A stretch of DNA of 32,629 nucleotides from Candidatus Sulfotelmatobacter sp. (GTDB taxonomy: Bacteria > Eisenbacteria > RBG-16-71-46): contig DATKAB010000131.1 of assembly GCA_035498555.1 (NCBI GenBank), positions 1 to 32,629 of the forward strand. The letters run 5' to 3'. Below, piece by piece: positions 27,127 through 32,629 of this stretch. Every line of letters starts with the position of its first letter. Position 1 is the first letter of the stretch. The translations under genes were made by a program, and so were the position numbers. Under the pieces are notes generated by a model. That model was not told the DNA's origin. It searched no databases and was given only the letters and a program-made list of their open reading frames with translations.

Positions 27127-29925
27127 ATGATGCCGCGCCGCCGCGCCATCCTGCCGCTGCTCGCGATCCTGCTCGTTCCCTCCACCAGTTCCGGCGCCTG
27201 GACGCATCCCGAGTTCTTCGCGCGACTCGCGGCCGACTCCACGCGCTCGATCGACCTCATCGGCAAGGCGCTTGGCGACTCGGCGCTCGGGGTGATGGAC
27301 ACGACTGTGGCCGAGGTGCGCCGTCAGGGCGATCGCACCGAGCTCACCGCCGCGCTTCGGGTGCACGCCACGATCGCCTCCTACGTGCCGCGTCCGACGG
27401 CCGGGCTCGGCTCCGTCGCGGAGGCCGAATCGCTGGCGCTGGTTTCGGGCGACAGTCTCGAGGTGCTGCGGTGTGCGCGCGCCCGGGCGTCGCTGCTCGC
27501 GGCGAGCGGGCAGCTCGAGCCGGCCTACGCCGAGGCGCAACGCAGCCTGGCGATGGCGCGTCGGCTGGGCTACGACGACGAAATTGCGTGGAGCGCGTTC
27601 ACCGTCACCAGCTTCATGTTCCGCGAGGCGAAGTTCCAGGATGCGATCCCTTACTACCGCGAGGCCGTAGATCACGCGACGCGTGCCGCGGCGCCCCTGA
27701 TCCTGCTGCGCTCGCTGCGCTGGGAGCTGCTCTCGGTGGGCCGGCTCGGCGACATGGCCACCGCCAGGGATCTCTCGACCCGCTTGCGCGCCGAGATCGC
27801 CAGGTACCCCGACAACTACGAAACGCCCTACGCCAGGATCGCGGTCGCGTTCTACGAATCCCAGGCCGGCGACCCGGGCGAGGCGTTGAAGCTGATCCGC
27901 GAGGCCGCCGACACCTTCCGCGCCCGTGGGGCCGAGCTCTATCTCGCGTTCACGCTGCGCGAGCTGGGCGGCAGCGAGCTCGATCTCGATCAGCTCCAGG
28001 CGGCCGAGCAGCATCTGACCGAAGCGCGGGCTCTCGACGAGAAGCTCGGACTACGCGTGCCGCTCGCGCTCCTGCACGTCACCCTGGCCAATCTCTACCA
28101 GGCGCAGAACCGCTTCGTGGACGCCGAGCGCGAGGCCCGCGCCGGGCTCGCCGCCGGAGACACCATCGAGGTGCTGGGCCAGGCCCGCTCGCTGGTGTGG
28201 CTCTCGTACGCGCTGTGCGGCCAGGGTCGTGCCGGAGAAGCGGTGCGCGAAGTCGAGGCGCGCCGGCCGGCGCTGCTCCCGCGCGCCACCGGCGAGGCGC
28301 TGATCGCGCTCGACGTCGCCTACGGGCTCGCGCTGCTGCAGGCTGACCGGCCGAGCGAGGCGCTGCCCTATCTCAAGAACATGGTGGCGGTCGGTGAAGC
28401 CATGAAGACCGCACGCTACGGACCCTATCTGTGGGCGTTCATCGCCCGCGCCTACCGCCAGCTCGGCGACTGGAGCCACGCGGACTCGTCGCTGGCCATG
28501 GCCACGCAGGCTCTGCAGGCGCGGCGGGCGCAGACCCGCGCCGCCGAAGCTCGCGAGAGCTGGAACTCGATCGACGAGCTGTTCGGCGAGATGGTGCTGC
28601 ACGAGCTGGAGCGTCCGAACGCCAGCGCTCAGGCGCGCACCATCGCCGCGTTCGATTCGCTCCAGCGTTTCAGGACCCGCACCCTGATCGAGCGCCTGAC
28701 CGGCACAGTCGCGGACCCCGCACACTCGCCGCCGCCGGTCACGGTCACGCGGCTTCAGACCACCGTGCTCAGACCCGGCGAGCTGTTGCTGGAGTCGCTC
28801 GCGACCGACGACTCGTCGTGGGTGTTCGCGGTGACGCGCGACACCTGCGCGGTGGTGGGCCTGCCTCGGCTGCCGGTCCTGACCGAACGCATTCAGGTGC
28901 TGCGCGATCTGGTCGCCGCCCCACCGGCGGATTCCTCCACGCGATTGTCGCGCGAGACGCTGGCCAGCTTCGGCGAGGGTCTGTTCGGCCCGCTCGTGCC
29001 GCTGATGCAGCAGTCGCAGACCGTGCTGTTCGCTCCCGATGGACCGCTTCACCTGGTGCCGCTCGCGGCGTTGCCGCTCGGAGCGGGCGGCGCCGCGCTG
29101 CTCGAAGATCACCGCGTGATCCACGTGCCCTCGGCCACCATGCTGGCGCTACTGCGCGAGCGCGCTCCGCCCACCGCGCCCGACGCGCGGCTGCTGGCCT
29201 TCATCGGCGGTGGGACCGAGGGCCCGCAGGGCCTGGCCGGCGCCCGCGCCGAGGTCGAGCAATTGCGCAACTCGTATCGCGACGTCGAAGTGCGCGCGGC
29301 CTCCACGATCCGCGCCTGGGACGACGCCCCCCACTTCGATCGATACGCGGCGATTCATTTCGCCGGCCACACCGCCGTGGACGACGATCGGCCGTGGCGC
29401 TCGGGCATTCAGCTGCGCGGCGGCGCCGACTCGAGCGCGATGTGGCGCGCCGAATCGATCGCAGCGGTGCCGCTGCGCGCCACCCTCGTGGTGCTTTCGA
29501 GCTGTCAGAGCGAGGGCAATCGCGCGCTGTCCGGCGAGGGGGTCGCCGGGCTTTCGACCGCGTTCCTGGCCGCGGGCGTGCCGACGGTGGTGGCGACGCT
29601 GTGGCCGGTCGAGGATCGCGCCACCGCGAAATTCATGCAGTCGTTCTATGCCGCGCTCGCCGATGGCCAGACCGCCGAGGACGCGCTACGCGCCGCGCAG
29701 AAGATCATGCGCTCCGATCCGGCGACCGCGCACCCGTTCTACTGGGCAGGATTCGTGGTGGTGGGAGCAGACGGCGCGAAACTGCACCTCGAGCGGCTGC
29801 CGGCCGGCGCGCGTCCGGAAACAGCGGGCGGCCTGCCGCTCATACTGCTCGCACTGGCCGGCGCGCTCATCGCGGTCGGCGTGATCGTGTTTTTCGTGCT
29901 GCGCCGCCGCGCCGCGAGCGCCTGA
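27127..29925 (+). CDS. Exported, membrane-anchored TPR-CHAT protein (caspase-like protease fold)
   Basis: 932 residues. An N-terminal signal peptide (about 1-23, RAILPLLAILLVPSTSSG) is followed by helical TPR-type repeats (about 60-500: FQDAIPYYREAVDHA, LTEARALDEKLG, FVDAEREARAGLAAGD). A CHAT domain spans about 560-890 and keeps the caspase-like dyad: His748 in IHFAGHTAVDD and Cys793 in VVLSSCQSEG. The C-terminal helix (about 903-924, GLPLILLALAGALIAVGVIV) and RRR tail would anchor it in the membrane with the protease outside the cytoplasm. Most studied CHAT proteins are cytoplasmic. Target and activation are unknown. Its 3' end overlaps the convergent Nudix gene by 59 bases. Confidence 0.9.
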   Translation: MMPRRRAILPLLAILLVPSTSSGAWTHPEFFARLAADSTRSIDLIGKALGDSALGVMDTTVAEVRRQGDRTELTAALRVHATIASYVPRPTAGLGSVAEAESLALVSGDSLEVLRCARARASLLAASGQLEPAYAEAQRSLAMARRLGYDDEIAWSAFTVTSFMFREAKFQDAIPYYREAVDHATRAAAPLILLRSLRWELLSVGRLGDMATARDLSTRLRAEIARYPDNYETPYARIAVAFYESQAGDPGEALKLIREAADTFRARGAELYLAFTLRELGGSELDLDQLQAAEQHLTEARALDEKLGLRVPLALLHVTLANLYQAQNRFVDAEREARAGLAAGDTIEVLGQARSLVWLSYALCGQGRAGEAVREVEARRPALLPRATGEALIALDVAYGLALLQADRPSEALPYLKNMVAVGEAMKTARYGPYLWAFIARAYRQLGDWSHADSSLAMATQALQARRAQTRAAEARESWNSIDELFGEMVLHELERPNASAQARTIAAFDSLQRFRTRTLIERLTGTVADPAHSPPPVTVTRLQTTVLRPGELLLESLATDDSSWVFAVTRDTCAVVGLPRLPVLTERIQVLRDLVAAPPADSSTRLSRETLASFGEGLFGPLVPLMQQSQTVLFAPDGPLHLVPLAALPLGAGGAALLEDHRVIHVPSATMLALLRERAPPTAPDARLLAFIGGGTEGPQGLAGARAEVEQLRNSYRDVEVRAASTIRAWDDAPHFDRYAAIHFAGHTAVDDDRPWRSGIQLRGGADSSAMWRAESIAAVPLRATLVVLSSCQSEGNRALSGEGVAGLSTAFLAAGVPTVVATLWPVEDRATAKFMQSFYAALADGQTAEDALRAAQKIMRSDPATAHPFYWAGFVVVGADGAKLHLERLPAGARPETAGGLPLILLALAGALIAVGVIVFFVLRRRAASA

Positions 29926-30400
29926 GCTTCGCCAGCAGCTCGGTGCGATCGAGCGCCCGGATCCCGGTGCGCGAGCGCAGCACTTCGGTCTCGAGCGCCC
30001 GGAGGCCCCGGCGCTGAGTCTCCCAGTGAAACAGGGGGCCGGCCGCGCGCGGCGCGAGCCAGCGAAAGTCGTCGTGCTCGCGGGACAGCCGCACCGCTTC
30101 TCCGGCGCCGACCTCGCACGCGAACAGCGGTAGAGCGGCCAGTCGCTCGTTCGCCGACTCGAACCAGACCGACAGCGTTTCCAGCCCCCACCACCGCCGG
30201 GGTTCGAGCCCGGTCTCCTCGCGGACCTCGCGGGCGGCGGCGACCAGCGCCGGCTCGTTGCGGCGGATGCGCCCGGTGATGGGCTGCCATGCGCCGGGCA
30301 GCGGGGTGCCGGGCGCGCGGTGAAGGCAGAGGATCTCGACCCGCCGCCTCCGGCGGCGGAACACGTAGACCTCGACGTGAGTGACCTGCAGGCGGATCAC
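29867..30400 (-). CDS. Nudix hydrolase, NudB-like
   Basis: 177 residues from a GTG at 30400. The Nudix box is perfect: GRIRRNEPALVAAAREVREE followed by TGL, i.e. Gly-x5-Glu-x7-Arg-Glu-x2-Glu-Glu-x-Gly. The flanking WQPITG and DFRWL resemble NudB-type nucleoside/dihydroneopterin triphosphate pyrophosphohydrolases; the exact substrate is uncertain. The last about 20 residues are Arg-rich (LRRSRRGGAARKTRSRRPR) and are read from the antisense of the CHAT gene's 3' end, suggesting a tail acquired by read-through into the neighbour. TATGCT lies 6 bases before the GTG, a leaderless arrangement. Confidence 0.88.
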   Translation of the reverse strand: MIRLQVTHVEVYVFRRRRRRVEILCLHRAPGTPLPGAWQPITGRIRRNEPALVAAAREVREETGLEPRRWWGLETLSVWFESANERLAALPLFACEVGAGEAVRLSREHDDFRWLAPRAAGPLFHWETQRRGLRALETEVLRSRTGIRALDRTELLAKLRRSRRGGAARKTRSRRPR

Positions 30401-30590: not shown

Positions 30591-30854
30591 GTGCGCACTT
30601 TGAACGACCCTGGGCGGAAGAGCGGGCCGTACAGCACTCTGCGAAGCGCCGGGATGCTGCTGGCGATTCCCACGCTGCTGATCGTCGCTCCATTGGTGGG
30701 CTTCTTCCTCGGGGCCGCGCTGGACCGCCGGTTCAAGACTTCCCCGTGGCTGGGAATCATCGGTCTCGCGCTGGGGTTCGTGGCCGCGGCGCGAGAGACG
30801 AGCCAGATCTACAAGCGCTACCAAGACGAGGAGGAGCGAGCGAAGCGCGGATAA
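30591..30854 (+). CDS. atpZ: AtpZ/AtpI-like small membrane protein at the head of the ATP synthase operon
   Basis: 87 residues from a GTG at 30591; a TTG at 30600 preceded by GGGGTG is an equally good start (84 residues). There are two membrane helices (about 20-43 and 51-68) joined by a short loop with DRRFKTSPWLGIIG, and a charged C-terminus (QIYKRYQDEEERAKRG). This is the AtpZ (F0F1-ATPase subunit, putative) pattern: AtpZ and AtpI assist F0 assembly and ion (Mg2+/Ca2+) handling. The next gene begins 16 bases later and carries an AtpI-like domain. Confidence 0.85.
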   Translation: MRTLNDPGRKSGPYSTLRSAGMLLAIPTLLIVAPLVGFFLGAALDRRFKTSPWLGIIGLALGFVAAARETSQIYKRYQDEEERAKRG

Positions 30855-30870: not shown

Positions 30871-32220
30871 ATGGGTCTCGAGTTCCTGGTTCGCGTTCGG
30901 CGCACCGCGCTGATCTCCGGTGGACTGCTGTCGCTGATGATCGCGACCTACGGCCGCCTGCCGCTTGGCATCGCGTTCGCCGCCGGGGTCGCGTGGTCGC
31001 TGATCAACCTCTTTCTTCTCGAGCGGCTCGTCGTCACGCTGACCGGCGCGGACCGGCGCGAGACGTCGTCCTGGCTGCGCGCGGGAACGAGCCTCGCCGG
31101 CCTGCTGCTCCTGTTCGCGGCCGGCGCCTGGACGCTGTCGCACCTCTCGATTCGCGCGCAGCTGCTCGGCTTCCTGCTCCCGCCTGGCGTGATCGTGCTC
31201 AAGGCCCTGTCCACCGTCACCCTCCAATCAGGGGCATGGCGAGCGATCACGGCGTCGCGGTGGAGGGCGGCGGCGATCGTCGCGGTGCTGCTGGTCGCGG
31301 CCTGGTGGATCGTGCCGGCGGTGCTGCACGGCGCGCGCGCCGAAGACGCGCCCGACGTCTCGACGCAGCAGGCCGAGACTTCGCACCAGGCCGCCGCGCA
31401 CGGCGAACAGGAGTCGGGGCCCCAGAAGTTCCCGAGCGTGATCACGGTGCTGGCCCGCGCGTACCCCGAGGCCGGCTGGGCGCGCTTCCTCGACCGCAAC
31501 GAGGCGATCGCGTTCGCGCTGCTGGTCGCATTCATCCTGTGCCTGGTTTGCTTCGTCGCCACGCGCAATCCGCAGATGATTCCGACGCCACTTCAGAACG
31601 CGCTCGAGCTGGTGGTGGAGGGGCTCCACAACTTCATCGCCGGCATCATCGGTGAGAAGTACGCGCCGCGCTTCGTGCCCTTCCTCGGCACGCTCGGCCT
31701 CTACATCTGGCTCATGAACCTGTTCGGGCTGCTGCCATTCATGGACTCGCCGACCTCGAGCCTCAACGTCACCTTCGCGCTCGGTTTGATCGTGTTCGTG
31801 TACGCCCAGTGGATCGGGCTCCGCGAGCTGGGCCCGCTCGGCTACGTCGATCACATGCTGGGCTCGCCGCGCGATCTGACCGGCTGGCTGCTGGCGCCGC
31901 TCATGCTGCCGATCCACGTGCTCGGCGAGCTGGCCAAGCCGATCTCGCTCTCGTGCCGATTGTTCGGCAACATCTTCGGCGAGGACATGCTGCTGGTGGC
32001 GTTCGTGAGTCTGGGAATCACCTGCCTGGCCAGCCTGCACCTGCCGTTCGGCCTTCCGCTTCAACTGCCGTTCCTGCTGCTCGCGCTGCTCACCAGCACG
32101 CTGCAGGCGGCGGTATTCATGGTGTTGAGCACGATTTACTTCCTGCTCATGCTTCCGCACGAAGATCACGATCACGAAGAAGCTCATTCTCACTCGGCGA
32201 CACCCGCTCAGGCGCACTAA
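30871..32220 (+). CDS. atpB: AtpI-like domain fused to ATP synthase subunit a
   Basis: 449 residues in one uninterrupted frame, against about 240-300 for most a subunits. Residues 1-125 have four hydrophobic helices in the manner of AtpI/ATP synthase subunit I. Residues 131-150 (WRAAAIVAVLLVAAWWIVPA) look like the signal-type start that would open a separate AtpB, followed by a charged linker (about 155-185). The a subunit proper is about 190-435, with the PTPLQNALELVVEGLHNFI entry, the essential Arg363 in SCRLFGNIFGED, and the closing helices LLLALLTSTLQAAVFMVLST. A His-rich tail ends it. It forms the proton half-channels of F0. No in-frame ATG or ribosome site between the two parts suggests separate translation. 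AtpE follows after 15 bases. Confidence 0.9.
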   Translation: MGLEFLVRVRRTALISGGLLSLMIATYGRLPLGIAFAAGVAWSLINLFLLERLVVTLTGADRRETSSWLRAGTSLAGLLLLFAAGAWTLSHLSIRAQLLGFLLPPGVIVLKALSTVTLQSGAWRAITASRWRAAAIVAVLLVAAWWIVPAVLHGARAEDAPDVSTQQAETSHQAAAHGEQESGPQKFPSVITVLARAYPEAGWARFLDRNEAIAFALLVAFILCLVCFVATRNPQMIPTPLQNALELVVEGLHNFIAGIIGEKYAPRFVPFLGTLGLYIWLMNLFGLLPFMDSPTSSLNVTFALGLIVFVYAQWIGLRELGPLGYVDHMLGSPRDLTGWLLAPLMLPIHVLGELAKPISLSCRLFGNIFGEDMLLVAFVSLGITCLASLHLPFGLPLQLPFLLLALLTSTLQAAVFMVLSTIYFLLMLPHEDHDHEEAHSHSATPAQAH

Positions 32221-32235
32221 CCGGAGGAATCGGCA

Positions 32236-32466
32236 ATGGATCTCCACGCGGCATTGTCTCTCGGTCTTCCCCTCGGCATCGGCATCGCGGCGATCGGCTC
32301 GGGCATCGGACTCGGTCTGATCGGCCAGGGCGCGATGCAGGCGATCGGCCGTCAGCCGGAAGCTACGGCCAAGATTCAGCTGGCCATGATCATCATCGCG
32401 GCGCTCGCCGAGGCGCTGACGATCTACGCGTTCGTCACCATGTTCCTCCTGTCAGGCAAGATTTGA
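32236..32466 (+). CDS. atpE: ATP synthase subunit c
   Basis: 76 residues, a two-helix hairpin with the conserved polar loop GRQPEA (38-43). The ion-binding carboxylate is Glu59 in AALAEALTIYAF. The residue after it is Ala rather than the Ser of Na+-binding rings (EST), so protons are the likely ion despite Gln31 in helix 1. The GxGxGxG packing motif reads GSGIGLGLIG. A strong GGAGG ribosome site sits 9 bases before the ATG, fitting the high copy number of c subunits. Confidence 0.97.
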   Translation: MDLHAALSLGLPLGIGIAAIGSGIGLGLIGQGAMQAIGRQPEATAKIQLAMIIIAALAEALTIYAFVTMFLLSGKI

Positions 32467-32536: not shown

Positions 32537-32629
32537 ATGGGAAATCTGATCGACATCCGGCAGGTCGTCACCCAGATCCTCGGGTTTCTGATCCTGCTGT
32601 GGGGGATGCGGAAGTTCGCCTGGGGTCCG
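32537..32629 (+). CDS. atpF: ATP synthase subunit b, N-terminal part (cut by window end)
   Basis: Thirty-one codons from the ATG at 32537, with GGAAGGGG just upstream. The start MGNLIDIRQVVTQILGFLIL followed by LWGMRKFAWGP is the membrane-anchor helix that opens every b subunit, ending in the usual short basic/aromatic turn. It follows atpE by 70 bases, the expected order (a, c, b). The stalk part is outside the window. Confidence 0.9.
   Translation, partial: MGNLIDIRQVVTQILGFLILLWGMRKFAWGP

Follow-up and report, generated by a model that had tools for sequence, protein, structure and literature searches.

In the window, which is the whole 32,629-nucleotide stretch of DNA that we analyzed, the ATP synthase genes atpI and atpB form one gene: an AtpI-like domain and subunit a are encoded in a single open frame. 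The fusion is real and conserved, being common to 28 of 40 judgeable Candidatus Eisenbacteria genomes and present in two genomes outside that phylum. The reading we favor, with a probability of roughly 60%, is that AtpI and subunit a are produced as one cotranslated precursor in which a bridging, signal-peptide-like helix sets the topology of the second half and is putatively cut by signal peptidase I.

The fused gene and its operon

The fused atpI-atpB gene runs on the forward strand from an ATG at 30871 to a stop at 32220 and encodes a 449-aa protein whose AtpI-like domain of four helices is followed by a fifth helix, then by a flexible linker and a complete subunit a. The initial annotation had described a single frame joining an AtpI-like domain to AtpB, with a signal-like helix at the join, and both observations hold: the frame is free of stops inside, and the AlphaFold2 model of the protein (mean pLDDT of 82.3; pTM of 0.54) has a helix at residues 130 to 154, followed by a low-confidence stretch at residues 155 to 182.

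The core of subunit a (31510 to 32142, forward strand) corresponds to residues 214 to 424, which match Pfam family PF00119 with 169.4 bits (E = 1.3e-49; cut-off, 33.9 bits). NCBIfam models named the subunit a part alone; the other match to the window protein was weak and unrelated (E = 0.025) and fell far under its cut-off. The predicted fold agrees with solved ATP synthase chains: the best Foldseek match to the model was 9ito_T (E = 2.4e-8; TM score of 0.72 by target length), and further matches were to chains named a of the chloroplast, mycobacterial, and E. coli enzymes, which we take to be subunit a in those entries. The stator arginine, Arg363 (codon at 31957 to 31959, forward strand), sits in a CRLFGN motif and is invariant in 27 fused proteins (alignment A3); presumably, it is equivalent to E. 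coli aArg210. Both the linker (31342 to 31437) and the C-terminal tail of subunit a (32158 to 32217) are rich in His and Glu, as in HEDHDHEEAHSHS, and the same is seen in relatives; the last His of the tail is invariant in 27 aligned rows. Metal binding by the linker and tail is conceivable.

Directly upstream of the fused gene lies atpZ (ATPase_gene1; 30591 to 30854, forward strand), which encodes a small membrane protein (PF09527; E = 2.3e-11; score of 44 bits, cut-off 26.6). Downstream are atpE, encoding subunit c (32236 to 32466, forward strand; PF00137, 57.8 bits), with GGAGGA in front of it, and the start of atpF (subunit b; 32537 to 32629, forward strand, by ORF reading), which is truncated at the contig end, giving the order atpZ, atpI-atpB, atpE, atpF. 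Another contig of the same genome, C98, opens with the same atpF start and continues with ORFs that we read as atpH, atpA, and atpG, the last of which matches PF00231 (gamma subunit) with 309.1 bits. The window locus and its continuation on C98 (atpF, atpH, atpA, and atpG) therefore make up the main F-type operon of the organism. A second, divergent subunit a is encoded on contig C68 of this genome (locus L002), near ORFs interpretable as another subunit c, another subunit b, and the start of another alpha; the gene order suggests that this cluster is an N-type ATPase, and the organism seems to own two ATP synthases. Also upstream of the ATP synthase genes, the window encodes a 932-aa protein with a final membrane helix (27127 to 29925, forward strand), whose C-terminal part, as we judge it, resembles a CHAT peptidase domain, and on the opposite strand a 177-aa frame (29867 to 30400) that resembles a Nudix hydrolase.

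The junction between AtpI and subunit a

Residues 118 to 157 of the window protein have the features of a signal peptidase I substrate: a basic n-region, a hydrophobic core, and small residues at positions −3 and −1. The basic, n-region-like stretch covers residues 120 to 130 (31228 to 31260; this and the following coordinates are on the forward strand), and there are three Arg and no acidic residues in residues 118 to 134. The bridging helix (residues 130 to 154; 31258 to 31332), predicted to pass from cytosol to periplasm, has a hydrophobic peak of 2.85, calculated as the mean Kyte-Doolittle value over 13 residues; its core is longer than is typical of cleavable signal peptides. Then comes a signal-peptidase-I-type site, Ala-Arg-Ala (residues 155 to 157; 31333 to 31341), in the sequence ARAED that begins at residue 155, with the cut predicted before Glu158. 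The linker that follows (residues 158 to 189; 31342 to 31437) is rich in Ala, His, Glu, and Gln, is predicted to be periplasmic, and is modeled as flexible, pLDDT being below 50 at residues 155 to 182. Lys plus Arg counts are 3, 3, and 3 in the predicted cytosolic segments versus 1, 1, and 1 outside, which is a positive-inside pattern. In the fused protein of one relative (L019, from G021), AtpI is separated from the signal-like helix by a stretch reading PTPSPCPLPKGER, which resembles the translation of a dispersed repeat that entered the gene in frame.

Candidate cleavage sites recur in other fused proteins. Counted in the 26 residues around and past the helix end, the strict motif A-x-A-[QED] is present in 15 of the 29 fused proteins whose helix could be scored (L038 was left out here and in the start codon counts below, as it has no hydrophobic window above threshold) versus 5.8 in shuffled linkers, and none of 2000 shuffles, which preserve composition but not relatedness, was as high. 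By family, the motif occurs in 9 of 17 f1 proteins (3.3 expected) and in 6 of the remaining 12 (2.6 expected). Looser site motifs are less clearly enriched (20 versus 14.0, 20 of 2000 shuffles; 24 versus 18.5, 35 of 2000 shuffles). The strict motif is also denser near the helix than farther down the linker (13 of 464 versus 8 of 1075 positions; Fisher p = 0.0024), with both the motif and the 14-residue limit between near and far picked after the sequences had been inspected. In the split set, which included L029 (from G022) and loci of other phyla, this motif was at background (3 of 16 versus 2.5 expected). By our own reading of the sequences, the separate subunit a has a signal-peptide-like start in 8 of the 12 split genomes of the phylum, and that of the split genomes of families f8 and f2 has no clear leader of this kind. 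The window's own genome has one match to the signal peptidase I family (PF10502; E = 8.1e-50). Across nine pairs of fused genes, dN/dS, taken as the ratio of computed dN and dS, is about 0.3 to 1.0 for the signal-helix junction and about 0.25 to 0.7 for the linker where computable, one linker dS being saturated. The bridge evolves fast yet remains hydrophobic, in the manner of signal peptides.

The N terminus of subunit a lies in the periplasm, and the four helices of AtpI are predicted to leave both of its ends in the cytosol. Because a four-helix AtpI ends in the cytosol and subunit a starts in the periplasm, an odd extra crossing, the fifth helix, is needed. In the precursor that we favor, one ribosome would translate AtpI, the fifth helix, and subunit a in one pass; the signal-like helix would supply the odd crossing and place the start of subunit a outside; and signal peptidase I would cut between ARA and ED, after residue 157. 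After the cut, AtpI would keep an additional C-terminal helix, and mature subunit a would be left with a short, flexible periplasmic tail rich in His, Ala, and Glu. Synthesis as one chain would hold AtpI and subunit a to a 1:1 ratio and put the assembly factor beside subunit a during its insertion next to the c-ring, and we infer that its advantage lies in this ratio and co-placement. A more tentative extension, possible but doubtful, is that the locus encodes a natural ATP synthase polyprotein, AtpI having been repeatedly fused to subunit a via an internal signal peptide in several lineages, with release by signal peptidase I as a timing step: every new channel subunit would be born with its own assembly chaperone, and subunit a, once freed by cleavage, would close the proton channel, but not before AtpI had served the c-ring.

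The initial annotation instead envisaged a permanent link tying the assembly factor to the stator channel. Under such a lasting tether the chain would stay uncut, and the fifth helix and periplasmic linker would hold AtpI to subunit a as an extra stator domain. We consider this less likely than cleavage, but it is a live alternative and the best placed of them: the strict A-x-A-[QED] site is absent from 14 of the 29 fused proteins, the bridging helix, at 25 residues in the window model, could serve as a membrane anchor, and the linker is predicted to be disordered, so that assembly need not be blocked. The signal-peptide features of the junction, the enrichment of strict sites just beyond the helix, and the similar leaders on separate subunit a point instead to a link that is cut, and they make permanence doubtful. 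On these sequence features, a transient link, cut after membrane insertion, appears at least as likely as a lasting one, and we favor the precursor separated by signal peptidase I.

The AtpI half and the distribution of the fusion

The AtpI-like domain (residues 1 to 119; 30871 to 31227, forward strand) has four predicted membrane helices (residues 3 to 27, 30 to 58, 65 to 91, and 94 to 119), and AlphaFold2 gives block-mean pLDDT values of 92 to 97 over residues 11 to 110. Pfam found no match in this N-terminal part of the window protein, even at E ≤ 10, and the window's own genome, among the 59 searched, yielded no match to PF03899 (ATP-synt_I). In relatives, PF03899 matched just ahead of subunit a in 13 of these 59 genomes at E ≤ 0.001, with 6 over the cut-off, among them the fused frame of G003, a genome of the same family as that of the window, which at 25.1 bits is right on it; and 9 of 23 aligned N-terminal domains matched at E ≤ 0.01. 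One of the 23 matched CGL160_C (E = 6.8e-4), the AtpR family was likewise touched by single members, and a single E. coli AtpI sequence did not match the N-terminal alignment. Split relatives have separate AtpI ORFs upstream of subunit a. Because of the PF03899 matches in relatives and the gene order, we identify the N-terminal half as AtpI. Against solved structures, the profile of the N-terminal domain returned a weak match to a permease (E = 0.029) and nothing else; we regard it as a chance hit. Four fused frames of family f5 (L036, L037, L040, and L041) lack an ATG near the expected AtpI start; the earliest start-like codon in them is either a TTG or one within helix one.

Could this half be just an N-terminal membrane anchor that aids insertion of subunit a and has no assembly role? 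The missing Pfam match in the window protein fits that idea, as does the faster change of the AtpI half than of subunit a (dN/dS of about 0.1 to 0.4) in the nine pairs of fused genes. We give the idea little credence: dN/dS of the AtpI half is about 0.3 to 0.6 in all nine pairs (one with just 34 AtpI codons), which indicates that it is kept under purifying selection, and among 23 AtpI domains, fused and separate, G39 and G100 are invariant and R8, N46, L97, F101, and K111 nearly so.

A genome was scored as fused when a single frame without stops covers both AtpI and subunit a, and as split when AtpI ends in a stop. Contig ends or lack of a match left 7 of the 47 phylum genomes searched not judgeable (G012, G014, G016, G022, G041, G042, and G043). 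The 28 fused genomes comprise 17 of family f1, 7 of f5, 3 of f9, and 1 of f3 (two f1 frames, L015 and L043, are truncated by a contig end elsewhere than at the join), and the 12 split ones belong to families f2, f6, f7, f8, f10, and f11. In G022, AtpI runs off the end of contig C237 (L046), and the end of contig C377 (L029) holds the start of a subunit a that has a signal-like helix; from these contig ends, family f4 may be fused too. A contig scan with the window protein alone confirmed nothing, and a scan with the alignment returned 30 loci, 18 of them labeled Candidatus Eisenbacteria (groundwater, sediment, lakes, and other sites). Outside the phylum, a survey of 385 genomes (the window's own included) gave stop-free, full-length matches only in G058 and G346 among the matches listed, using a profile that was tuned to Eisenbacteria and included G058; further fusions may exist elsewhere, as other phyla also have several long frames, those of G332, G269, and G231 among them. 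G058 and G346 are both of family f23, and a third f23 genome, G207, is split.

On a tree of subunit a (49 cores, 231 columns), the fused or split state needs at least five changes, three of them forced by well-supported branches alone. A single fused clade was rejected (p-AU = 3.9e-8) in a test whose 19 nonfused rows included L029 (from the nonjudgeable G022) and L030 (from G025, which is split, its AtpI having its own stop). Gains and losses look alike on this tree, which does not fix the root. Since most bacteria keep AtpI apart from subunit a, repeated gain is the more economical interpretation; the history is probably one of recurrent gene fusion of known parts. Loss of the fusion is possible in f2 (G020, of the same order as the window genome).

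As for two proteins arising from one frame, with subunit a initiated at an internal codon, in-frame ATG, GTG, or TTG codons do occur near the join in 26 of the 29 fused loci. A Shine-Dalgarno core accompanies 8 of these 81 codons versus 25 of 29 atpE starts (a set that includes L038, excludes L043, and shares 28 loci with the internal-start set; the starts of L019, L023, and L040 were taken, with some uncertainty, at GTG or TTG), and 15 of the 29 loci have no ATG, and 3 no start codon of any kind, near the join. The window gene had been described as having no internal start, which stands as far as Shine-Dalgarno cores are concerned but not for codons: three in-frame GTG codons lie near its join, none with such a core. 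Separate initiation is unlikely on these sequence grounds, and we regard the two-protein alternative as very improbable.

An artifact or a chance lack of a stop has next to no probability: the fused genomes other than the single-contig G058 are multicontig drafts and G+C is high, but a sequencing or assembly frameshift is ruled out because the fusion recurs across many separately assembled genomes, and a chance absence of stops is ruled out by conservation and by the coding signature of the 30 fused junctions (0 in-frame stops in 2573 codons versus 30 and 23 in the other two frames; G+C of 0.77, 0.61, and 0.84 at codon positions 1, 2, and 3).

Comparison with known systems

Plant papers use "atpI" for subunit a itself, which clutters literature searches; in a search by titles and abstract starts, a fusion of AtpI and subunit a was absent among the matches listed. 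In the portion consulted of a survey of ATP synthase evolution in 272 species, "fused" does not occur, "fusion" occurs once, in a reference to b/delta, and AtpI is called the least studied subunit (PMC4154653). How AtpI acts and which subunit is its partner are poorly settled. Repeated fusion to subunit a points to action at the interface of subunit a and the c-ring and to a need for a 1:1 ratio, and the internal signal site offers a clean way to ask whether the two proteins must be parted.

FbcH of Bradyrhizobium is a precursor of two respiratory membrane proteins, cytochrome b and cytochrome c1, one chain that is separated at an internal signal peptide; it belongs to a different complex, and its cleavage was shown by experiment, whereas that of the AtpI-subunit a precursor is putative. 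The mycobacterial b-delta protein is a lasting natural fusion between ATP synthase proteins; it joins two structural subunits and involves neither an assembly factor nor a signal helix.

The N-terminal half resembles AtpI (UncI, PF03899), a factor for c-ring assembly whose gene lies upstream of atpB, in its place between atpZ and atpB, its four predicted helices, and the profile matches in relatives; AtpI is usually a free protein, whereas in this gene it makes up the N-terminal half of the polypeptide that carries subunit a. In Acetobacterium woodii, AtpI is described as required to assemble an unusual c-ring (PMC8904574). The ATP synthase assembly factor CGL160 of plant chloroplasts likewise combines a membrane domain of the AtpI type with a fused CF1-recruiting domain and links assembly steps (PMC9806626). 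The one match to CGL160_C among the 23 domains adds to this likeness; the difference is that CGL160 is an auxiliary factor with a CF1-recruiting partner, whereas in the fused protein AtpI is joined to the channel subunit. In yeast, the mitochondrial subunit a, Atp6, is synthesized as a precursor whose N-terminal leader is removed by Atp23, a protease that also aids assembly; in a proteolytically inactive atp23 mutant, the uncut Atp6 precursor is still able to form a functional enzyme (PMC8877559). Atp6 thus offers a subunit a precursor whose N-terminal part is cut off, as we propose here, although by a metalloprotease acting on a leader peptide, with neither an AtpI domain nor signal peptidase. 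A processed AtpI-subunit a precursor would be the bacterial parallel of yeast's Atp6 precursor.
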